Made by a program: the position numbers and the translations under genes | Notes under the pieces: generated by a model | The model's input: the letters and a program-made list of their open reading frames with translations, nothing else | Databases searched by the model: none | What the model was told of the DNA's origin: nothing | In this document: positions 16,362-35,923 of the stretch, one piece after another | Numbering within the stretch: the stretch's first letter is position 1 | Layout of the letters: the number at the start of each line of letters is the position of its first letter | DNA from: Gracilibacter sp. BRH_c7a | GTDB taxonomy: Bacteria; Bacillota; Desulfitobacteriia; Desulfitobacteriales; Syntrophobotulaceae | Assembly (NCBI GenBank): GCA_001516055.1 | Contig: LOEZ01000074.1 | Location: 1-40,838 of the forward strand | Direction of reading: 5' to 3' | Length of the DNA stretch: 40,838 nucleotides

Positions 16362-16494
16362 ATCCTCATCACCTTTAATGTTTTTTATCTTTGGCTTAAT
16401 TTTATACGCAAATATAGGATATTACAATCGATACCTTATAGTATAAATATTTCAACAACACTATTCACCCAAGATCCATATCTCATAATTAATA

Positions 16495-16521
16495 AAGGAG
16501 CCTGCTTTCGCAAAACTCCTT
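16495..16521 (-). terminator. Terminator of the ECF/cobamide operon
   Basis: On the minus strand AAGGAG...CTCCTT is followed by TATTAATTATG, about 30 bp after the EcfT stop. Confidence 0.6.
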
Positions 16522-16552
16522 AGGATATCTTAAGATTAGTTCATTCAATTTG

Positions 16553-17344
16553 CTATAAACATCCCCATTGCTTTACAATTCGCACATAAAAAGCCATTAG
16601 TAAAAGCCCCATCGTCATCGCTATCATCAGATAATCACGGAATCTAAAACGCAGTTCACGGGCCGGTGTCCAGGTTTTTGCATAGCCAAAGCCCCGGCTG
16701 ACCATGGACATGGAAAGCGTATCGGCCATTTGAATGGAACTCGCAAACAGGGGAATGACGATTGGTAAAAATGAACGAATGGAAAGGAAAAAACCATCTT
16801 CCTGGTTGTGTGCACCTCGTGCTTTTTGTGCTTCACTGATCTGAAGCCTTTTTTTATTGAGTGCCGGGATAAAACGGAGTGCAGTCATGAGGAGGAATGA
16901 AATCTCGTTGGGAAGTTTTGTCCATTGGAAGAACTGAAATAAATCTTCCAAAGAAGTACTCGTTTGGATAATCAAAGAAGATAGAACAAAAATCAGGATC
17001 CGTATAACATAAGTTAAGCCAAGACTTAAGCCTCCTTGCGTAATTGCCCAGCGATCGCTTGAGCCAAAAGAATAAATGACAGATTGGCTGGAATCGAGTA
17101 TAAAATTAGTATGGCTAAGATTAAAGCTTGTCACGATCAATATTAAAACGAGCAAAGGCCAAAGCGGGAGTAAAGCCTTAGCAAACCGGATCCAGGATAA
17201 CCGGCCAAAGAAAGCAAACCCACAGGCGATAAGAAATAAACCGGCGAGGAAACGCGGATCATTAAATAAAAACGTCAGAATCATAAAGCCGATAAATCCG
17301 ATTGCTTTTACCCGAATATCACTCTGCATTCTTTTCATCAGCAT
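16553..17344 (-). CDS. ecfT: ECF transporter T component
   Basis: A 263-residue protein with about five or six membrane helices and the two cytoplasmic coupling motifs of EcfT, AQKARGA and SRGFG. These motifs dock on the ATPases and transmit ATP hydrolysis to the substrate-binding S component. The start overlaps the end of the ATPase gene by 26 bp, which indicates translational coupling. It is the last gene of the riboswitch-led operon. Confidence 0.9.
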   Translation of the reverse strand: MLMKRMQSDIRVKAIGFIGFMILTFLFNDPRFLAGLFLIACGFAFFGRLSWIRFAKALLPLWPLLVLILIVTSFNLSHTNFILDSSQSVIYSFGSSDRWAITQGGLSLGLTYVIRILIFVLSSLIIQTSTSLEDLFQFFQWTKLPNEISFLLMTALRFIPALNKKRLQISEAQKARGAHNQEDGFFLSIRSFLPIVIPLFASSIQMADTLSMSMVSRGFGYAKTWTPARELRFRFRDYLMIAMTMGLLLMAFYVRIVKQWGCL

Positions 17345-18863
17345 TTCCCCCGCTTATTATTCTCCCTTCATTCAAAACGACAACCCGCTGAGCGTGAGTA
17401 GCCAACTCCATGTCATGCGTAATCATGATAATAGTCGTCCCTTCTTTATGCAAGGTTCGGATTATGGCCATTACCCTTTTGGCTCCTGGCCAATCCAACC
17501 CCTTGGTAGGTTCGTCAACAACTAAAATATCCGGCTGCAAAACAATTGCGGAAGCGACTGCCAACATTTGCCTCAAGCTTTTTCCCAATGTCAACGGGTG
17601 AAGCAGGCGGTATTCCTCCAACCCGAATTTTCCCAGAACTTCATCCACTCTATTTTGAATCTCAGGTACGGATTTACCGGCATTTTTCAAGCCAAAGGCC
17701 AACTCCTTTTCCACCGTCGTTTCAAAGAGCTGGTGATCAGGATTCTGAAAAACATAGCCTACTGTGCCGGCTAATTCTGCCGTCTTATATTGCCTGGTGT
17801 TTTTACCGCTGACCCATACATCCCCCTTGATGGGCTCCAACAAACCATTCAAGTGCTTGGTTAGGGTCGTTTTTCCAGCACCATTGGGTCCGATCAAGGC
17901 TACAAATTCTCCAGGGTGAATGGTAAGATTAATCTGATCAAGGCTAAGATTTGAACTATGATAATGATGGGTCAGATCCCGGATATGTATTCTTCCTCTG
18001 GGATCACCCTCTTGCCCGGTGTATTCCTGACAGACATCTTTTTCCATCCCTTGGATACATATATTGCATGGTTGTCGCCATGGATCAGATTCACCAATAG
18101 ATGAAATCCCATTCACGGGCAGCGGCCTGATGCCAAGCTGATCAAGCAAGGACAGATTACGGAAAAGTTTCTCCGGTTCTCCTTGCCAGGCAACTTTTCC
18201 ATCTTTTAACACAATAACCTCATCTGCCCTGTTCCAGACATCTTCGATGGAATGTTCAATAACGATAATAGTATGCGACCCTTCCCTCCTCAGTTCATCC
18301 AAGGCTGTATATAAAGCGGCGCGTCCTTCCGGATCCAGTTCCGAAGCCGGTTCATCCAGGACTAAAACCTTTGGGTACATCGCCGATACTCCGGCTAAAG
18401 CCAAGCGTTGCTTTTCTCCTCCGGAGAGTTCATCTGTTTTACGTGCTTCATAACCTGCAAGTTGAACTTTCGCTAATTCTGTTTGTACCCGGTGTTCAAT
18501 CTCCTCAGGGGGAAGCCCTAAGTTCCTCGGCCCAAACGCCGTATCCTCTGCCACAGTCGATCCGATGATTTGACTCTCCGGGTCCTGGAAAACCAGACCC
18601 ACCGAGTTTGCTAAGCTCTGAGGGCGAAATTTGCCGGTGTCTTTTCCTTCTATATATACTTTCCCCAGCATCCTTCCTTCCAGAAGCTGTGGGATAATCC
18701 CGTTGAGAGAAAGAGCTAAAGTTGTCTTTCCCGATCCATTCATCCCCATGATCACGATAAATCTGCCCTGTTTAATCTTAAGGTTTATCCCGGAGAGACT
18801 GGGGGCTTCACGATTTGGATAAAAGTAGGTGAGGTTTTCAATCTGAACGGCGTTATCTGTCAT
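17319..18863 (-). CDS. Fused double ATPase of ECF transporter (EcfA-EcfA')
   Basis: A 514-residue protein with two ABC domains in one chain. Domain 1 has Walker A GMNGSGKTT, signature LSGGEKQR and Walker B VLVLDEPASELD. Domain 2 has Walker A GPNGAGKTT and VVDEPTKGLD, but its signature is TLGKSLRQ instead of LSGGQ-like. A cysteine-containing linker (about 250-290) joins them. It energises uptake by the adjacent S component. The odd second signature suggests one of the two composite ATP sites is degenerate. It is 1 bp from the S-component gene. Confidence 0.92.
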   Translation of the reverse strand: MTDNAVQIENLTYFYPNREAPSLSGINLKIKQGRFIVIMGMNGSGKTTLALSLNGIIPQLLEGRMLGKVYIEGKDTGKFRPQSLANSVGLVFQDPESQIIGSTVAEDTAFGPRNLGLPPEEIEHRVQTELAKVQLAGYEARKTDELSGGEKQRLALAGVSAMYPKVLVLDEPASELDPEGRAALYTALDELRREGSHTIIVIEHSIEDVWNRADEVIVLKDGKVAWQGEPEKLFRNLSLLDQLGIRPLPVNGISSIGESDPWRQPCNICIQGMEKDVCQEYTGQEGDPRGRIHIRDLTHHYHSSNLSLDQINLTIHPGEFVALIGPNGAGKTTLTKHLNGLLEPIKGDVWVSGKNTRQYKTAELAGTVGYVFQNPDHQLFETTVEKELAFGLKNAGKSVPEIQNRVDEVLGKFGLEEYRLLHPLTLGKSLRQMLAVASAIVLQPDILVVDEPTKGLDWPGAKRVMAIIRTLHKEGTTIIMITHDMELATHAQRVVVLNEGRIISGGNADEKNAE

Positions 18864-18864
18864 G

Positions 18865-19389
18865 TTATTTTAACAAGGAACTATTTTTTAAAGCTTTGTA
18901 TGCGAAACCGGAAAGAATAACGTTGATAGCTGAACCTACAATCAGGAATGGCATTACGCCTATTACTGCCACCATCCCACCCAAGGGATACATAATGAAG
19001 GAAGACAGAACGCCGTTCAGAATGATGGCTGCAACCATGGCAGGAATAAGTCCAATTTTTTTGTTTACCCAACGGTAGATGATTGCCCAAAGAGCCATGA
19101 GGACAGCAACTCCCAAGTGGAGAGGTATGGTAAGCGGAAACCCTACTACGGCTGACGTCAGCATATGACCTAAAGCAATCACGATAGCACCCTCAAAAGA
19201 GCCAAAAGCTATAGCAGCAAAATAACCCGGTGCTGAATCTAAGCCTATTGTACCGACCGGACTCGGAATCTTAATCAAAGATCCTACTGCGCTTAAAGCC
19301 AGAAATATAGCCATAACAGCAATTCTTCTCGAATTCCAAAAGGGCTTTTTCAAATCTTGTTGAACTTCATTTTCATTCATAGTAATCAT
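18865..19389 (-). CDS. cblT: ECF transporter S component, candidate alpha-ribazole transporter CblT
   Basis: A 174-residue protein (ATG at 19389; AGGAG lies before it). It has about six hydrophobic helices with SPVGTIGLDSAPGYFAAIAFG and ALGHMLTSAVVGFPLTIPLH, an S-component pattern. S components bind the substrate. The B12 riboswitch upstream and the AIR-synthase-like kinase next door suggest a cobamide precursor, most simply alpha-ribazole as for Listeria CblT. Uptake of another corrinoid-related compound is the alternative. Confidence 0.7.
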   Translation of the reverse strand: MITMNENEVQQDLKKPFWNSRRIAVMAIFLALSAVGSLIKIPSPVGTIGLDSAPGYFAAIAFGSFEGAIVIALGHMLTSAVVGFPLTIPLHLGVAVLMALWAIIYRWVNKKIGLIPAMVAAIILNGVLSSFIMYPLGGMVAVIGVMPFLIVGSAINVILSGFAYKALKNSSLLK

Positions 19390-19463
19390 TCTCCATTCTC
19401 CTATTTTGTAATTTTTAATGGCCATTATTATGATTCGTCTCAGCTTATTCCATGATAAGTGGC

Positions 19464-20207
19464 CTATACATTCTCCAGGATACGTCCGACTCGATAGAAA
19501 GGAAGCGAGCCGAAATCAAATTCTTGAATTGTATGCCTAGTGGTAAAAATAAGAACTGTGGATGGACCGGCGGATTTTTCAAGTGGTACAGGACAATTCA
19601 AATCATATTCAATCCGACCCTGAATTTCCCGTGCCACGAGTTCACATTCAGAACGAATCCCCCTAGATCCTACCGGAATAAGATCATGAACTGCTCCATT
19701 CTTAAGCAGCTTTAGCAGGTGTTCTATGCGGACAATCTCCGGATCGTCAGGATCATTCACTTCTGAGCCAACTTTCGGTTTGCCGAGACCATAGATCCAG
19801 TCACCTATCTCACTTTTCCCCAGACGCAGATTCGAAATATCACAACTACCCACCACGCTGACGCCCAGGCCTGTTTGACTAGTCGGAACATTTTTTTCCG
19901 TACTAACAACCAGCTTGACATGCTCCAACCCTGCAGCCAGAAGTTCTGCGCGGACGCCCCCGATAATATTGGAGCCTGTTGGTTCCGGTTCACTGGATAT
20001 TGCTACAGTGATGACTTCCGGTCGTGCTCCACTCGCCATGACTTCCAACAAGGCCACGCGGGCAGTGAAACGACCGGTCAGGTTAGCCGGGACTGAAACC
20101 ACGTCCAACTCTTTGGAACCGATTGCTCCACACGAATCGCAGGAAACAACGATACAAACTCCTTCTTGAAGAAAAGCGACTTCGACGTCCCGTGCTTTGT
20201 ATCCCAT
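19464..20207 (-). CDS. cblS: AIR-synthase-like kinase, candidate alpha-ribazole kinase CblS
   Basis: A 247-residue protein resembling one lobe of the AIR synthase/ThiL/SelD superfamily. It has an N-terminal SCDSCGAIGSKELD metal/ATP segment, GRFTARVALLEVMASGARP, and a GLGVSVVG strand in the middle. CblS of Listeria and Geobacillus belongs to this fold and phosphorylates imported alpha-ribazole, which then enters cobamide assembly. The first-gene position behind a B12 riboswitch and beside an ECF transporter fits that role well. GGGGGGAGAAA precedes the ATG. Confidence 0.72.
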   Translation of the reverse strand: MGYKARDVEVAFLQEGVCIVVSCDSCGAIGSKELDVVSVPANLTGRFTARVALLEVMASGARPEVITVAISSEPEPTGSNIIGGVRAELLAAGLEHVKLVVSTEKNVPTSQTGLGVSVVGSCDISNLRLGKSEIGDWIYGLGKPKVGSEVNDPDDPEIVRIEHLLKLLKNGAVHDLIPVGSRGIRSECELVAREIQGRIEYDLNCPVPLEKSAGPSTVLIFTTRHTIQEFDFGSLPFYRVGRILENV

Positions 20208-20315
20208 TTTCTCCCCCCTTTCTCAAAAAAATAAAAGCCCATAGTCATTTTTTGCTTAAGCTAAGCTTAGGCGGAAAAATTGACCATGAACTTTACCTTT
20301 GTGTCATGTCATAAG

Positions 20316-20472
20316 TCTACAGGCAGGTCTCCTGACTCAGATTCCTCACCCCCGGCACCTTCCCAGTCTCCCAGTGGTTTTGCCGGTGGCTCCTCCTTAC
20401 AGTGGTGGGTCCGTCCGGGATTTACACCCGATTCCCTATTCTCCATTGATTCTCCAATGGCACCTGTAAACT
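20316..20472 (-). promoter_or_regulatory. Cobalamin riboswitch
   Basis: Read on the minus strand, the landmarks come in the right order: an outer stem start ACAGGTGCC; AGGGAAT-GGTG-AAATCCC; CCACTGTAA; the B12-box CCACTGGGAGACTGGGAAGG (20377-20358); and a closing TCAGGAGACCTGCCTGT. The aptamer ends about 110 bp before the cblS start. That expression platform contains the palindrome GCTTAAGC and a TTTTATTTTTTT run, which fits a terminator. High B12 should switch off the salvage/ECF operon. Confidence 0.93.
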
Positions 20473-20528
20473 ATTACCTTATGGATTTACAATTATTTTA
20501 TCTTGAAATAGATTAACTGACAAGGGGA

Positions 20529-30061: not shown

Positions 30062-31276
30062 ATGAACAATGTTCCTGTCTTAAGTATTGATATTTCTAAG
30101 TCAAAGAGTTATGCTGCCCTATTCAGATCCTATGGTGATCCATATTTAAAACCATTTCCTTTTAACCATTGTCCCTCAGATCTCAGTTACCTAAGTTCTC
30201 AATTAAAGAATATTGAGAGAGATACTGGTAAGAAACCGAGTGTTGTGATGGAAGCCACGGGGAATTATTCCAAACCGATTGCTTCTTTCTTCCGAGAAAA
30301 TGGCTATCTGGTCTATATTATTAATCCCTTGCAGACTCACGCTCAAAAGAAAAAGTCTGTACGTAAGGTTAAGACTGACCCGATTGATGCCAATAGGATT
30401 GCTCAGGTATTTTATCTTGATAAGTTTTGTGCAGATCATTCTTTTGAACCGCATATTCAGGAATTGAAAAGTCTTTGCCGGCAATATGACGGTTTTAATG
30501 ATCTCTACGTAGAAACCCAGAATCGGCTGAGATCTGTCCTTGACCTATACTTTCCTCTTTGTGAAACGGTGTTTGCTCATCTTCGCGGCAAGACTGCTCT
30601 TCGTGTTCTTGCTTTGTTTCCGTCTCCTGCTGATGTTCTATCTGCCAGTCATGATGAACTTTTTGAGGCTCTTAAGCCTTCTAAAAAGTCCGTAAGTTGG
30701 TGTGAATCAAAAATCGATCTGTTGATTTTAGCTGCCAAGGAGAGTTTGCCTTTGAACCAGGCCCAAGCTTCCAATGTCCGGATTTTAAGGAACTATATTG
30801 AGCTCCTTTTATCCCAGCAGAATATCTTGGCTGATTTACGGGCTCAGATGGTTTACTGGGCAAACTTTTCTCCTTATTACTCTCTCCTGTGCTCTATTCC
30901 AGGAGTCGGTGAGATGACAGCTACCACCATTCTCGCGGAGATTGGCGATATTGAAAGATTTCCTGGTCCAAAACAGCTGGTAGCTTTCGCAGGTCTGGAT
31001 CCATCTGTTTTTCAATCAGGAAACTTCAAAGCGAGCAAAAACAGGATATCTAAACGGGGTTCTAGTTATTTCCGTAAGGCTCTATACCAGGCTACAGTTG
31101 CAGGAATTAGTAATCTACCGGGCGGTCCACGCAATAAAATCCTTTATGAGTTCTACTCGAAAAAATTGGCGGAAGGTAAACCCACAAAAACCGCAATTAT
31201 TGCCAGTTGTAACAAACTTATCCGAATGATTTATGGGATTCTTACTTCTGGAAACCCCTATTCTTTAAGTCACTAA
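30062..31276 (+). CDS. IS110-family transposase/recombinase
   Basis: A 404-residue protein. The N-terminal RuvC-like DEDD domain has SIDISKS, a VVMEATGNYSKP segment and VKTDPIDANRIA. The C-terminal Transposase_20 part has IPGVGEMTATTILAEIGD and then FAGLDPSVFQSG...SKRGSSYFRKAL, with the conserved serine region. It acts as an RNA-guided recombinase in characterised relatives. It appears full length with no frameshift, and GAGGAGGCTTTCT precedes the ATG, so it may be active. Confidence 0.96.
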   Translation: MNNVPVLSIDISKSKSYAALFRSYGDPYLKPFPFNHCPSDLSYLSSQLKNIERDTGKKPSVVMEATGNYSKPIASFFRENGYLVYIINPLQTHAQKKKSVRKVKTDPIDANRIAQVFYLDKFCADHSFEPHIQELKSLCRQYDGFNDLYVETQNRLRSVLDLYFPLCETVFAHLRGKTALRVLALFPSPADVLSASHDELFEALKPSKKSVSWCESKIDLLILAAKESLPLNQAQASNVRILRNYIELLLSQQNILADLRAQMVYWANFSPYYSLLCSIPGVGEMTATTILAEIGDIERFPGPKQLVAFAGLDPSVFQSGNFKASKNRISKRGSSYFRKALYQATVAGISNLPGGPRNKILYEFYSKKLAEGKPTKTAIIASCNKLIRMIYGILTSGNPYSLSH

Positions 31277-31422
31277 TTCTCTTTTACTTAGAGCATTCCT
31301 TTAATTATTATTCTTTTTCAAAAAGTCTATTATGTAGGCTTAATTTGTTGTACTCTTTTCCGAGCTATATATGTTTTAGAAAGTTTTTCTTGACAGGGAT
31401 TAGCTGTTCAAGTGGAGTTGGT

Positions 31423-31457
31423 CCCCCATATTCAAAGGCGGACAGGACGTCGGCCCC
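31423..31457. repeat. Small hairpin repeat, AGGAC-loop family
   Basis: CCCCCATATTCAAA, then GGCGGAC-AGGAC-GTCGGCC (31437-31455; 7-bp arms, one mismatch, 5-base loop), then CCC. It lies just right of the IS110 element. Confidence 0.75.
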
Positions 31458-31463
31458 TCAAAT

Positions 31464-31496
31464 TATAAAAAGAATGGCCCATTTTCTGAACCATTC
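31464..31496 (-). terminator. Terminator of the HTH-kinase-barrel operon
   Basis: On the minus strand GAATGG...CCATTC is followed by TTTTTATAATTT, about 25 bp after the stop of the 402-residue protein. Confidence 0.75.
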
Positions 31497-31521
31497 ACTT
31501 TTACCCATCAGCATATATAAC

Positions 31522-32730
31522 TCACATTTCTTGCCACGCTAATTTTAATGAAAACCCTCTAGTTTTCTGAAGTCTCTGGATAGCAGATCGATTAACATCT
31601 ATAATATCTTTAAAACTTCTAGACTGAGCATATACCCCGTTCTTTTCCAGAAACTCCAATCTTCTTTCAGCCGTCTCTAATAACATTTCATTAGCAGCAA
31701 TAGTTTCTTCGAATGAATCTCTTGAACAAATACTGGCCTGTTTTTTTAAGCTTTCTAAGTAATGCCTAAATGCTAAAGTTTCATTAAACGTAGTTGCGGT
31801 TGGCATAGCGCCAGAAAAGATTAAGTCAATGTATTCATTATTAAACTCAACCCCTGGTTTCATTTCATCGAGAATTCCATTATTGTAGGCAACATCTAAA
31901 AATGATATTTTGTATTCAGATAGTGCCTGAGGGTAATAATACCAGACACTTTTTCTTTTTATCTCCCCTTCTAGGTCCTCGAATTTGTTAGAGAATTTCC
32001 TGACATTCAAGTATGTTCCCGAGGCTATAGAATCAACTTTAGCAGTTGATAAACATAATAGCTGCTGATTAGCGTAACCTACAATGACTTCTTTATTAAG
32101 CAGTTTTAGACCAGCACAAAGTTGTAATAGGTTTGATAGCCATAGCGGGTTATCTACTAGATATTGTCCGTTTGGTGGTTCAGCAATTATATAATATCCA
32201 TCAACTTCAAGCTTTTCTGTTATCTCAATAACCTTCTCAATCATATCTTCTTTTTGAGATAACAAGTCTGACGGTAGTGCTAATGTCAACAGTAATTTTT
32301 TGTCTCCCACAATATTTAATGATGCTTCAACAAGTTTCTCTGAATCGTTTTTCCATTTTTTCATCCACTCTTCATCATACTTACGCATAATAGCCGGGAT
32401 AATAAATTTCTTTGTACCAATTATGTCATTATAATTATTTATACTATTTATCAGATTGCTTTCATATTTTAAATCTGAGTTTAGATTAGTAGACATGGAA
32501 TTATTCCAATAATCATATTGCGATAAAGTTTTATGATTGCTCTTAGGAAAATAACATTGTGGATCAAATAAGCAGCTTACATTTGTTTTCCGAAATTCTT
32601 TACTCCATGCAATTAATTGTTTGCAGGAAATGTCTCGAGGACTTAATACTACATCTGTTTCTTTCCATTCTTCTGCAAAATCCAGTACTAGTTTTTTCAT
32701 TCCCCATCCGAATTGTAAATATAATCGCAT
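31522..32730 (-). CDS. Unknown 402-residue protein, possibly beta/alpha-barrel
   Basis: No family recognised. Alternating strands and helices (VVLSPRDIS, then VSCLFDPQCY, KKFIIPAIM, KLLLTLALP, VDGYYIIAEPP, KEVIVGYANQQ, VDSIASGTYLNVRKF) look like a TIM-type barrel. The last ~90 residues are helical and charged. GYANQQLL followed by DSIASGTYLN recalls tRNA-guanine-transglycosylase-like barrels, but no zinc ligands are evident. It starts 4 bp after the kinase stop and is certainly in the same operon, so it could be the kinase's substrate or effector. Confidence 0.7.
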   Translation of the reverse strand: MRLYLQFGWGMKKLVLDFAEEWKETDVVLSPRDISCKQLIAWSKEFRKTNVSCLFDPQCYFPKSNHKTLSQYDYWNNSMSTNLNSDLKYESNLINSINNYNDIIGTKKFIIPAIMRKYDEEWMKKWKNDSEKLVEASLNIVGDKKLLLTLALPSDLLSQKEDMIEKVIEITEKLEVDGYYIIAEPPNGQYLVDNPLWLSNLLQLCAGLKLLNKEVIVGYANQQLLCLSTAKVDSIASGTYLNVRKFSNKFEDLEGEIKRKSVWYYYPQALSEYKISFLDVAYNNGILDEMKPGVEFNNEYIDLIFSGAMPTATTFNETLAFRHYLESLKKQASICSRDSFEETIAANEMLLETAERRLEFLEKNGVYAQSRSFKDIIDVNRSAIQRLQKTRGFSLKLAWQEM

Positions 32731-32734
32731 TGGA

Positions 32735-33589
32735 TTAATCTCCCTTCATCTCTAAGGTAGATAGCACCGCCTCAAACCAGTCAAACGCTTTTTGGGCGGA
32801 TGGTGGTCTCCTCGTCGTGTGCTTTTGCATTAAAGTTTGTATAAAGCTAATTAGTTGCTTGCTTGTATCTCCATCAATTTGATATTCTTTTGGAGTAATA
32901 GTTTTTGTTTTATACCATATTTCGTCCATACTTAACTCATCGCCAGATAAAAAAGGATGTTCTCCGGTTAAAGCTTCAAATAATACTACACCAATTGAAA
33001 ATAGGTCAGATCTGATATCGATATTCTTTTTGCTATATTGAAATAATTCCGGTGCACCATACCCTGGTGTATGCGGGCCAATCCTAGCTTCAGTCATTGT
33101 AAGAGAAGCCTTATCTAACACTCTTGCAATTCCGAAATCAATTAAATAAAATTTTGTATTTCGACAGCACATTATATTGCTTGGTTTTATATCTCTATGA
33201 ACAATATTTATTTTTTCAAGAACTAGTGATATTTCCAATAATGTTCTTAACAGTTTTATTCCTTCATTTAAATTTAATTTCGTTTTAGATAATCGTTCTT
33301 GTAGTGAGTCTCCCTCTATGTATTCTTCGATTATGCAAAGAAAGTTTTCACCGCTTATATTTGTAAACTCTTTAAGCTCAATAATTTGAGGGACATTTGG
33401 GATTGAGTTTTCAGTTACAATCTCAATTTCTCTTTTAACTCTTTCGTCTCCACTTTTTACTATTTTCGCTATTACAATTGTCCCATCAAAGTGCTCTGTC
33501 AGGAAAACTTTCTTCTGACCGGTATTTGGATATTCTATAATAATCTTGCCCACTATTCTTAAAGACTCCAGTTCGGCTCTTGAAATCAT
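32735..33589 (-). CDS. Eukaryotic-type Ser/Thr protein kinase
   Basis: A 284-residue, single-domain cytoplasmic kinase. The probable ATP lysine is K42 (VIAKIV). The catalytic loop is HRDIKPSN (D133), then DFG (151-153), PGYGAPE and DLFSIGVVLFEALTG. All catalytic residues are present. The glycine-rich loop is atypical (GKIIIEYPNTG). There is no transmembrane segment or PASTA domain, unlike the housekeeping PrkC. It is the middle gene of a three-gene operon next to a Shedu gene, so a role in stress or phage defence signalling is inferred. Confidence 0.93.
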   Translation of the reverse strand: MISRAELESLRIVGKIIIEYPNTGQKKVFLTEHFDGTIVIAKIVKSGDERVKREIEIVTENSIPNVPQIIELKEFTNISGENFLCIIEEYIEGDSLQERLSKTKLNLNEGIKLLRTLLEISLVLEKINIVHRDIKPSNIMCCRNTKFYLIDFGIARVLDKASLTMTEARIGPHTPGYGAPELFQYSKKNIDIRSDLFSIGVVLFEALTGEHPFLSGDELSMDEIWYKTKTITPKEYQIDGDTSKQLISFIQTLMQKHTTRRPPSAQKAFDWFEAVLSTLEMKGD

Positions 33590-33604
33590 AATGAATTAAC
33601 TCCT

Positions 33605-34330
33605 TTATTTCTCCATCAATATTTTCCCCAACCATTCATTGAAGTAAATTGAAGAATAACTTACCGGCATATACGCCTTGGATGATTTGTTAACCCTCCT
33701 GAAACGGTTCCTATTAAACGTATAAATTCCAATACCAAATTTAGTAAATTTATTGAGTTTATCCCCAGTTATTCCTTTATCCAAATTTGAGAGAACATAG
33801 CTTTCTGATGCAAAATTTTTATTTATTAAAGCTTGTTGAAAAACTTGATCTAATTTATTGATTTTTGCTTCAACAGCTTCTATATTTCTGATGCTAAAAA
33901 CATCCTTATTTTTAGTTCTCCAAAACTCATTCTTTCTTGTTATAAACTTACAATCATAAAGCTTTTCAACTGCTAGCATTGTGTCTTTCCACGTAACACC
34001 CAATTGTTTTGTAATCTCATTGGCATTAATCTCTTTGTTCTGAAAAATATGGTATAAAATTTTATAGTCAATTATTGACAACTCTTTCCGTATATTATTC
34101 CAATTATTATAGTTTTCTGGATTATAACTTACAAAAACAATGTCTGGGTAGGAGTTATCAATTTTTGGCTCGATAAATATCGCAAGTTTGTTTATGTTTG
34201 AAAATCGGAATACATCCTTTTTATAGTCTATAAACGCTTTTACCAGATCAAATTCTATACCCTTAGTAATTTTTCTAGTCTTTATTCCGATTTCCTTATA
34301 TTGATCATATATCTCTATAGTATTATTCAT
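33605..34330 (-). CDS. Unknown protein with central winged-helix-like region
   Basis: A 241-residue protein (ATG at 34330, CAGGAGTGATAAAC before it). Residues about 40-75 carry AIFIEPKIDNSYPDIVFVSY, with an E...PDxxF pattern seen in some PD-(D/E)XK-like domains. Residues about 85-150 look like a helix-turn-helix (IDYKILYHIFQNKEINANEI, then TKQLGVTWKDTMLAVEKL). The end is basic. It is the first gene of the operon with the kinase and barrel-like protein; it may be its regulator or a DNA-binding sensor. No named family. Confidence 0.7.
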   Translation of the reverse strand: MNNTIEIYDQYKEIGIKTRKITKGIEFDLVKAFIDYKKDVFRFSNINKLAIFIEPKIDNSYPDIVFVSYNPENYNNWNNIRKELSIIDYKILYHIFQNKEINANEITKQLGVTWKDTMLAVEKLYDCKFITRKNEFWRTKNKDVFSIRNIEAVEAKINKLDQVFQQALINKNFASESYVLSNLDKGITGDKLNKFTKFGIGIYTFNRNRFRRVNKSSKAYMPVSYSSIYFNEWLGKILMEK

Positions 34331-34349
34331 GTTTATCACTCCTGGTACT

Positions 34350-34377
34350 ATTTTACAAATGGTTATCGCCGTCACAA
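34350..34377 (-). promoter_or_regulatory. Predicted promoter of the HTH-kinase-barrel operon
   Basis: -35 TTGTGA (34377-34372), 16-bp spacer, -10 TAAAAT (34355-34350), just before the RBS. ATGGTTAT occurs at 34359-34366 (in the spacer) and again at 34393-34400, as possible direct-repeat binding sites. Confidence 0.4.
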
Positions 34378-34558
34378 TAAGATTACTAAAATATGGTTAT
34401 TTTATTCTTTATCCAATTTTACATTTCCTTTTAAGGCAAAGATGAAAATATATCATTTTGTTTCATAGTACCCTAACCTTCTGTTATTAACAACATCCGT
34501 CTTAAAAATAAGGTATTTTTTACTACTTTGATGGCATTTATTCTTCCATATATCTATT

Positions 34559-34587
34559 CGTAAGGTTAAGACTGATCCGATTGATGC
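34559..34587 (+). mobile_element. 29-bp IS110 transposase fragment
   Basis: CGTAAGGTTAAGACTGATCC and the following bases match 30361-30389 with one mismatch. This is the part encoding RKVKTDPIDA. It lies in the 34376-34624 stretch, where no gene is seen. Confidence 0.7.
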
Positions 34588-34624
34588 TATAAGTGAAAAT
34601 TAACAGTCTAGTATAGTTAGTGTT

Positions 34625-35923
34625 TTAAGAAATCCGATTAATTGTATTTTGAAATACTTCAAGTAAGTCATCATATAGAACAAACTCAATATTTTTTAAT
34701 GAGTTATTCAATCTCCTAAAATCATTCTTCATTTTTTGGTATTTTTCTGCCACAAACTTATCTTTAGTATCTTCCCCAGCAATATAGTCCCATGAACTAG
34801 CAACAATATATACCTTTGGTCTTATTACATCTACTTCAATTCTGTATTTGTCTCTAATATTAATCATTATGGTCTTACTGTTTTCCATCATTGAGTCAAT
34901 GTAATTCTCTGATTGTGAAATTGCTTTTGTTGCCTCAGAACTCCAGTGAAAGTTATTTCTTCCTGCATCGTAGCTTAACAATTTAGTTATATGAGTCTTT
35001 ATTTCAAAAACGTCAAGATATCCATAAGTATTTAAAAGAATGTAGTCTGGAATATTAAGGGACTTATCACCTTGTATACGTTCTTTCTCAAATTTTTCGA
35101 CATAGCCCATGTTAAAGTAAAGCATGTTTTCTCTAAAGAAATCTTGCCATTTATCTTCTAATCGATCTGTTTCAGTTTTTTGCCTCATGAGTTCTTCAAA
35201 CTTATGAATAATGTCCTCTAAAAATACTTTTTCAACTTTTTCTTTAGTAGCAATTATCCCTTTTTCCTTAACAAATAAATGACTAATGTCTAGTTTTGAT
35301 ATTAAATCTGTCATAGTGGTTAAATCTGAGATTGAAAGATTATCCGTTGTAATGCTCTTCGATGTAATAAAATTAGCTAATTCTCCGGAGACATAATCAT
35401 ACTTTTCATCCTCAACGATGCCTGGGAAAATATTATTTATAATATTAGAGACTATAACATTCTTTTCTTTACTTTGCTTAGATAACATTGGAGCTATTCT
35501 TTCTCTTGCAAGTTTAATATCTTCATATGATAACTTAATTATGGTACCATCAATAATTTCTGTGCAACCTTCATAATCGACTATTAATGTATCTAAATCC
35601 TTAAACTCATCCTGTAGTCTATAGATAAAGGGATTTACTTCTTTGGTAAAGCCATAACCGTAATTGGGACTTTTCATTATTCCAACGGGTAAATTTTTAG
35701 GCATGTTTCTATATATAATTTTAGTAAACGAGTATTTTTTCTTACCATCCCTTCTAAAGGGGTAGTGAATTACTTCTTTCTTCTTTTTCATTACTTCTTT
35801 AGATAGGATTTCTATACCTCGTTCTTTATCAACAAAGTAATACTTATCCTTGGTTTTAAGTTTTTCCTTAGGATATTCGTATCTAATCTCGCCATCAAAC
35901 TCATATAACAAATCTTCATCCAT
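34625..35923 (-). CDS. sduA: Shedu anti-phage protein SduA (DUF4263 nuclease)
   Basis: A 432-residue protein. The C-terminal third has the Shedu PD-(D/E)XK core: WQDFFREN (E265), IPDYILLN (D293), LDVFEIK (E307, K309), and ATKAISQSENY with the conserved Q337. The N-terminal ~230 residues, which differ among Shedu proteins, would sense the trigger. Shedu is a single-gene defence system whose nuclease acts on phage or plasmid DNA. GAGGAGAAAAACAA precedes the ATG. The 101-residue gene at 35981-36286, 57 bp upstream, may be co-transcribed. Confidence 0.88.
   Translation of the reverse strand: MDEDLLYEFDGEIRYEYPKEKLKTKDKYYFVDKERGIEILSKEVMKKKKEVIHYPFRRDGKKKYSFTKIIYRNMPKNLPVGIMKSPNYGYGFTKEVNPFIYRLQDEFKDLDTLIVDYEGCTEIIDGTIIKLSYEDIKLARERIAPMLSKQSKEKNVIVSNIINNIFPGIVEDEKYDYVSGELANFITSKSITTDNLSISDLTTMTDLISKLDISHLFVKEKGIIATKEKVEKVFLEDIIHKFEELMRQKTETDRLEDKWQDFFRENMLYFNMGYVEKFEKERIQGDKSLNIPDYILLNTYGYLDVFEIKTHITKLLSYDAGRNNFHWSSEATKAISQSENYIDSMMENSKTIMINIRDKYRIEVDVIRPKVYIVASSWDYIAGEDTKDKFVAEKYQKMKNDFRRLNNSLKNIEFVLYDDLLEVFQNTINRIS

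Follow-up and report, generated by a model that had tools for sequence, protein, structure and literature searches.

The window analysed here covers positions 1 to 40,838 of contig LOEZ01000074.1 of Gracilibacter sp. BRH_c7a, and its minus strand carries, from position 20482 to 16553, an operon headed by a cobalamin riboswitch. We found that the riboswitch is followed by genes for a CblS-like kinase, a CblT-like S component of an energy-coupling factor (ECF) transporter, a fused double ATPase, and the coupling protein EcfT (Table 1). An earlier note, made from the sequence alone, had proposed both this order and the riboswitch control. Covariance-model and family searches confirmed them, and the aptamer upstream of the first gene scores far above the RF00174 cut-off of 31.5 bits. 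Judging from the sequence, we consider it likely that the operon encodes alpha-ribazole salvage with its own ECF transporter.

Table 1. Features of the operon and of the genes downstream of it in the window.
Feature	Position	Strand	Remarks
Cobalamin riboswitch aptamer (RF00174)	20305..20482	-	Heads the operon; 115.1 bits, E 2.5e-28, model positions 1-189 complete
Expression platform, long hairpin	20225..20300	-	3' side enters a U stretch just before the ribosome-binding site
CblS-like alpha-ribazole kinase (predicted)	19464..20207	-	247 aa; AIRS/ThiL/SelD fold
CblT-like ECF S component	18865..19425	-	186 aa; PF12822, 52 bits, above cut-off
Fused double ATPase EcfA-EcfA'	17319..18863	-	514 aa; two ABC_tran domains
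EcfT transmembrane coupling protein	16553..17344	-	263 aa; PF02361, 90.1 bits, above cut-off
Terminator-like hairpin directly after ecfT, poor U tail	16480..16530	-	-12.8 kcal/mol, z -2.0, 10/200 shuffles equally stable
Regulator-type ORF	15771		Clear Crp-family match; downstream of ecfT
Regulator-type ORF	15065		Weak NtcA match, taken as a regulator; downstream of ecfT
Reductive dehalogenase gene rdhA	14629-13307	-	TIGR02486, 224.2 bits (cut-off 160.35)
Second rdhA	12690-11380	-	TIGR02486, 226.2 bits (cut-off 160.35)

The genes are tightly packed, with 1 bp between the S component and ATPase genes and a 26-bp overlap of the ATPase gene with ecfT. In one scan of genome contigs, which yielded 69 named loci, we found cblS with a downstream ECF module in 34 loci besides this one, mostly behind the same riboswitch. 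The arrangement is therefore not a chance one. The leader hairpin has a folding energy of -25.7 kcal/mol (z -5.5), and none of 200 shuffled sequences was equally stable; when it was folded within a longer stretch, z was -2.1 and 6 of 200 shuffles were equally stable. A consensus terminator scan, which admits loops of 3 to 8 only, did not report this hairpin, nor did it list the one after ecfT. Both that scan (8 sites, compared with 7.6 in shuffles) and a sigma-70 scan (28 sites, compared with 22.2) gave counts near the shuffle level. We infer that the leader hairpin is an intrinsic transcription terminator switched by adenosylated corrinoid. The leader of cblS in Symbiobacterium thermophilum, named in the part of PMC9600662 available to us, has an aptamer of the same RF00174 family and a like-named gene downstream.

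The first gene product is a relative of CblS along its full length. In a tblastn search of a plasmid collection it matched six records (two from Listeria, three from Levilactobacillus, and one from Lactiplantibacillus), with E values of 2e-27 for the CblS homologue of Lactiplantibacillus plantarum pMF1298-5 and 5e-27 for the Listeria protein. By blastp it is 33% identical to these two relatives, over 221 and 237 aa, and its identity to 42 family members ranges from 27 to 66%. For pMF1298-5, the accessible part of PMC6722938 describes an operon of CblT, CblS, CobS, and CobC homologues. We found the order S component-CblS-cobS-phosphatase in the plasmid record, where the CblS gene is annotated as hypothetical; the matching gene order indicates that it is the CblS named in that paper. 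The gene for the Listeria relative is followed by cobU, cobS, and cobC, and its product is presumably the CblS of the 2010 paper by Gray and Escalante-Semerena.

The predicted fold of the CblS-like protein points in the same direction. PF00586 (AIRS) matches 39 of 43 family members at E values up to 0.1, including the window protein at 0.006, which is under the curated cut-off, and weak NCBIfam matches within the family fall to "methanogenesis marker 2" (26 members), SelD (21), and ThiL (17). An AlphaFold2 model had a predicted local distance difference test (pLDDT) score of 96. Its top Foldseek matches were ThiL structures with bound nucleotide (3.1e-13), and structural comparison gave Z scores of 20.9 for SelD, 19.7 for HypE, and 18.9 for ThiL. 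Single-sequence searches of the PDB gave nothing useful, and the CblS profile gave one weak AIR-synthetase match there (E 0.73). The model suggests that the protein is likely an ATP-using small-molecule kinase, and alpha-ribazole is its predicted substrate by homology and gene context. In the part of PMC6461909 that we consulted, CblS is the alpha-ribazole kinase and CblT the transporter, and CblS is counted in 363 species, mostly Firmicutes. The CblS-like kinase of the earlier note is thus supported by homology and by an AIRS/ThiL-type fold, as a predicted function.

The earlier note had also called the S component CblT-like. Consistently with this, its identity to the CblT homologue of pMF1298-5 is 30% over 156 aa (8e-16, blastp among 18 proteins). 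In contrast, it gave no blastp match at E values up to 10 to the one CbrT compared, that of the same plasmid, a gene assigned from the available part of PMC6722938. A profile of the S-component family finds RibU (4.6e-7), and the structural model has a RibU-type fold with RibU as its top Foldseek match (6.6e-4). We also found cblT and cblS side by side in 53 of the 69 named loci; cblS comes first in 34 of them and cblT in 19. It is conceivable that the S component imports intact cobalamin or cobinamide, as CbrT does, and that the kinase acts on something else: the CbrT-type system of pMF1298-5 likewise comes with a double ATPase and a T component of its own, its ATPase is 30% identical to that of the window, and our genes follow a cobalamin riboswitch. 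The lack of similarity to CbrT, the linkage of the S component to cblS, and a BtuFCD-like importer already present in the genome all speak against cobalamin import, and we rejected it as highly improbable.

The remaining two genes complete the transporter. Both TIGR04520 and TIGR04521 match the double ATPase above their cut-offs. By common motif patterns, the ATPase has two Walker A and two Walker B motifs, one LSGGE signature, and a deviating second signature, LTLGK. EcfT has the tripeptides ARG and SRG; with the pattern used for EcfT, just one such tripeptide turned up in most of 30 relatives. The claim that a complete module (A, A', and T) is encoded with the S component in one operon therefore held. 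In its own genome the S component is the one member of PF12822, the sole S family searched, above cut-off, and there are four EcfT-family genes.

To place the module, we labelled the loci of a CblS tree by inspection. Sequences shorter than 190 aa (L078, L095, L096, and L103) and a second Listeria copy (L033) were omitted. We found that the loci with EcfA-A' and/or EcfT directly downstream lie on one side of a single branch, with 35 rows (window included) on that side and 33 on the other. This branch has an SH-like approximate likelihood ratio test (SH-aLRT) value of 99, obtained by a quick method with no bootstrap; the distribution requires one change, and none of 500 shuffles was as low. Among the module loci, L066 has no detected S component, and L049 and L061 end before EcfT. 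A single gain of the module along with this gene pair, or a single loss, thus accounts for its distribution, and the dedicated transporter is a trait of the clade. Its members are mainly Desulfosporosinus, with Paradesulfitobacterium, Heliobacterium, Desulfotruncus, a Pelotomaculum metagenome-assembled genome (MAG), Acididesulfobacillus, and Desulfocicer. The order cblS-cblT-EcfAA'-EcfT recurs in two Desulfobacterota, Desulfocicer vacuolatum (L046) and a Desulfobacula MAG (L096). Because Desulfocicer belongs to another phylum, these occurrences suggest horizontal transfer. In the lineages without the module, cblT precedes cblS or cblS lies within cob genes, and no such module is directly downstream.

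The surroundings of the gene pair elsewhere point to cobamide synthesis. A riboswitch precedes cblS in 31 of the 35 module loci scanned; three of the others are at a contig end (L039, L052, and L096), and the Desulfocicer locus L046 has none at the cut-off. Among 11 scanned loci of other types, a cobalamin riboswitch is present somewhere in 5 and immediately ahead of cblT-cblS in 3. Fifteen Desulfosporosinus loci have cbiD as the first gene found downstream of ecfT on that strand (four verified by hidden Markov model). Nine loci have a second cobalamin riboswitch beyond cbiD, followed by cbiE-cbiT in the three scanned. The closest relative (CblS identity 67%) has cobT some 5 kb upstream, separated by genes that look unrelated. 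Among 30 phylum loci, 4 have cobT, cblT, and cblS as neighbours; in L141, L146, L148, and L151 cobT lies directly upstream of cblT-cblS, so both lower-ligand routes can share a cluster.

Alpha-ribazole salvage by CblT and CblS has reportedly been worked out in Listeria innocua and Geobacillus kaustophilus, by Gray and Escalante-Semerena in 2010 and by Mattes and Escalante-Semerena in 2017. The pathway itself is therefore already known, and the present operon is a variant of it. Both have a kinase of the CblS family, an S component of the CblT family, and a link to cobalamin genes; the present operon differs in including a complete ECF module and in placing cblS ahead of cblT, and its genome has cobT as well. 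In both Listeria loci that we inspected the order is cblS-cobU-cobS-cobC, and we found neither an ECF ATPase gene nor a T gene within 4 kb. The pMF1298-5 cluster, as given in the accessible part of PMC6722938, also has cblT-cblS beside cob genes and a double-ATPase ECF system on the plasmid. Its ECF module, however, adjoins another S component (CbrT as read) outside the cblT-cblS group, whereas the module in the window joins cblS-cblT. The ECF-CbrT B12 importer (PMC5997447, consulted in part) is likewise an ECF transporter for a cobamide-related compound, but the S component of the window shows no similarity to the plasmid CbrT that blastp could detect. Three traits together may be new here: a private ECF module, its having arisen once, and the presence of CobT alongside it in a cobamide maker for which no lower-ligand synthesis was recognised. 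Among the titles and abstract openings that our literature searches listed, none describes an ECF module dedicated to CblT or treats CblT together with Desulfosporosinus, and the operon may have been mentioned earlier elsewhere.

Several observations weigh against assigning the operon to alpha-ribazole salvage. The CblS-like protein matches no Pfam or NCBIfam model at E 1e-3. The blastp E values stem from a comparison of 18 proteins, which lowers our confidence in the assignment. The second ATPase signature (EcfA'), LTLGK, departs from LSGGQ; 27 of 30 relatives miss even a loose pattern, and 3 match it. A cobT gene in the genome makes a salvage system dispensable in principle. Lastly, the imported compound may be a free base, given the two descriptions of CblT in the literature. 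In the parts of PMC6167548 and PMC8123684 available to us, each terms CblT an alpha-ribazole transporter once and ties it to 5,6-dimethylbenzimidazole (DMB) elsewhere, and PMC6167548 reports that pseudo-B12 is made by a Lactobacillus cblTS strain without cobT, in disagreement with the 2017 work.

Because of these two descriptions and the pseudo-B12 result, we kept as a rival the possibility that CblT imports a free base (DMB or a purine) and that the substrate phosphorylated by CblS is an alpha-riboside of intracellular origin. The excerpts favour it in three ways: PMC8123684 places cblTS under DMB uptake, PMC6167548 gives the Geobacillus result as transport of DMB by CblT, and the title of the 2017 paper has Salmonella enterica itself making the DMB alpha-riboside. 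On the other hand, the joint occurrence of cblT and cblS in most named loci is simplest if CblT delivers the substrate of CblS, and the CobT of this genome could activate a free base without CblS. We regard import of a free base as unlikely, though it is the most serious competitor of alpha-ribazole import; overall, we consider the assignment to this pathway probably correct.

The earlier note had asked whether the genome encodes CobT and other B12 importers, and we found both. The genome has four cobalamin riboswitch matches; at 95.8% completeness, anything missing from it is only provisionally absent. One of the riboswitches heads cobT, cbiM, genes for an EcfT-family protein and a CbiO-type ATPase, and the genes cbiD, L, F, G, H, J, ET, A, and B. 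Of these, CbiG falls short of its curated cut-off; the search covered neither cbiC, cbiK/X, cbiP, nor cobD. Another heads genes for a DUF71-type protein, cobU, cobS, cobA, cobC, and a BtuFCD-like importer. CobS is above cut-off there, and the CobU, CobA, CobC, BtuF, BtuC, and BtuD models are under theirs, so these are family-level names. No BluB scored above cut-off in the genome (there were below-cut-off matches only), and no Bza gene was recognised: the sole PF01964 match is ThiC (579 bits, cut-off 460), and we rejected BzaB as its identity since the BzaB model gave 508.5 bits with a cut-off of 700. The cell thus seems able to make the corrinoid and to activate bases via CobT, with no DMB synthesis recognised. 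The operon may thus supply a cobamide-producing cell with a lower ligand that it is unable to synthesise.

Some other features of these cobamide genes were noted. The first gene behind the cobU-cobS riboswitch (L118:11975-12769, contig C27) encodes a DUF71/Dph6-like ATP pyrophosphatase. According to the accessible part of PMC3541065, a DUF71-B12 subgroup is predicted to replace bacterial CbiZ in B12 salvage, and we found no CbiZ match in the genome. The cobU-cobS-cobC operon and its riboswitch were seen twice, on contigs C27 and C80, where 10,000 bases (L118:6956-16955 and L119:1-10000) are 100% identical; this is probably assembly redundancy. Contig C61 (L121:7397-10020) has another CbiM-type gene, close to which lies a gene of the EcfT family; this contig has no riboswitch match. 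The fourth EcfT-family gene, on C84 (L120:3075-6484), follows a 622-aa open reading frame (ORF) and a 289-aa ORF without a family match and is possibly part of another ECF system. In the window itself, a nitroreductase-family gene at 2262-2783 has weak similarity to BluB (61.9 bits, cut-off 150), and we did not call it BluB.

CblS might be thought to substitute for CobT, and we rejected this: cobT is present in the own genome, and no anticorrelation was found. Among 61 genomes searched, all 27 that carry CblS (own included) also carry CobT. In a phylum sample of 299 genomes, CobT occurs in 44 of 80 CblS-positive genomes (43 of 78 when two weak partial matches are set aside) and in 111 of 219 CblS-negative ones. 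Because this genome has cobT, corrin-ring genes, cobS, and a BtuFCD-like importer, we suggest that CblS and CblT supplement CobT. The data suggest that alpha-ribazole salvage is not solely a stand-in for a missing CobT.

According to our model, scarcity of adenosylated corrinoid would let transcription proceed past the leader hairpin. CblT would then bind an alpha-ribazole-type compound outside the cell, and the EcfA-A'-T module, by homology, would power its entry. CblS would use ATP to convert the imported compound to alpha-ribazole 5'-phosphate, as homology and fold predict. The cobamide would be completed by CobS and a CobC-like phosphatase, whose genes follow another cobalamin riboswitch elsewhere in the genome, if both have the roles usual for their families. 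With CobT also present, the salvage operon would be a second entrance to the lower-ligand branch. We suggest a wider scenario with more doubt than confidence: a clade of anaerobes that keep CobT and corrin-ring genes may have acquired, once, a private ATP-driven importer for an activated lower ligand, and, for a cell in which DMB synthesis is not recognised (as in this genome), the alpha-ribazole released by neighbouring cells might decide which cobamide is made, including the one used by the dehalogenases. The choice of lower ligand affects which cobamide-dependent enzymes work, and the operon offers a compact four-gene system for probing ECF specificity toward an alpha-riboside.

The earlier note had placed the operon beside corrinoid-dependent dehalogenases and proposed that it may control which cobamide is made for them. 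The proximity stands: on the strand of the operon, the two RdhA genes begin roughly 2 and 4 kb past the end of ecfT. According to the accessible part of PMC8123684, purinyl-cobamide is reported as a native RdhA cofactor, and a route that imports an activated lower ligand could thus shift dechlorination. A link to the dehalogenases was not supported. The hairpin after ecfT and the two regulator-type ORFs intervene, and a 98-aa ORF without family matches lies between those ORFs and the first rdhA. We searched 75 other stretches by tblastn (E 1e-5) with both window RdhAs and found no rdhA in any of them. The set comprised the 69 named loci together with two loci from Listeria and four stretches of 7 to 20 kb from G012, G031, and G032; those of G012 overlap L035, the flanks vary, reaching at most 6 kb in the named loci, and tblastn could overlook divergent RdhAs.

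Co-occurrence gave the same picture. RdhA scored above its curated cut-off in 19 of the 61 genomes, and CblS is present in 6 of these 19 compared with 21 of the other 42 (own included among the 61). In the five other genomes with both, the RdhA genes above cut-off are on other contigs (three, draft) or at least hundreds of kilobases away (two). The four genomes richest in RdhA matches (21 to 33; G003, G013, G017, and G023, all of one genus) have no CblS. A search for the dehalobox consensus, with one mismatch allowed, gave 3 matches where 8.4 were expected, none beside the rdh genes. Since no rdhA was found in the 75 other stretches and there is no positive co-occurrence in the 61 genomes, the placement of the operon beside the rdhA genes is most likely accidental, and the transporter is, as described above, a trait of its clade. 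We therefore rejected an operon specialised for the neighbouring dehalogenases and setting their cobamide, for want of conserved linkage or positive co-occurrence; it would be compatible with alpha-ribazole salvage, but we give it very little credence. The dehalogenase genes are probably a separate unit, and any benefit to RdhA would pass through the shared cobamide pool.

Farther along the window, genes for an IS110-type transposase, a protein with a protein kinase domain, and a Shedu SduA-C protein lie together at 30062-35923, and this may be a defence region.

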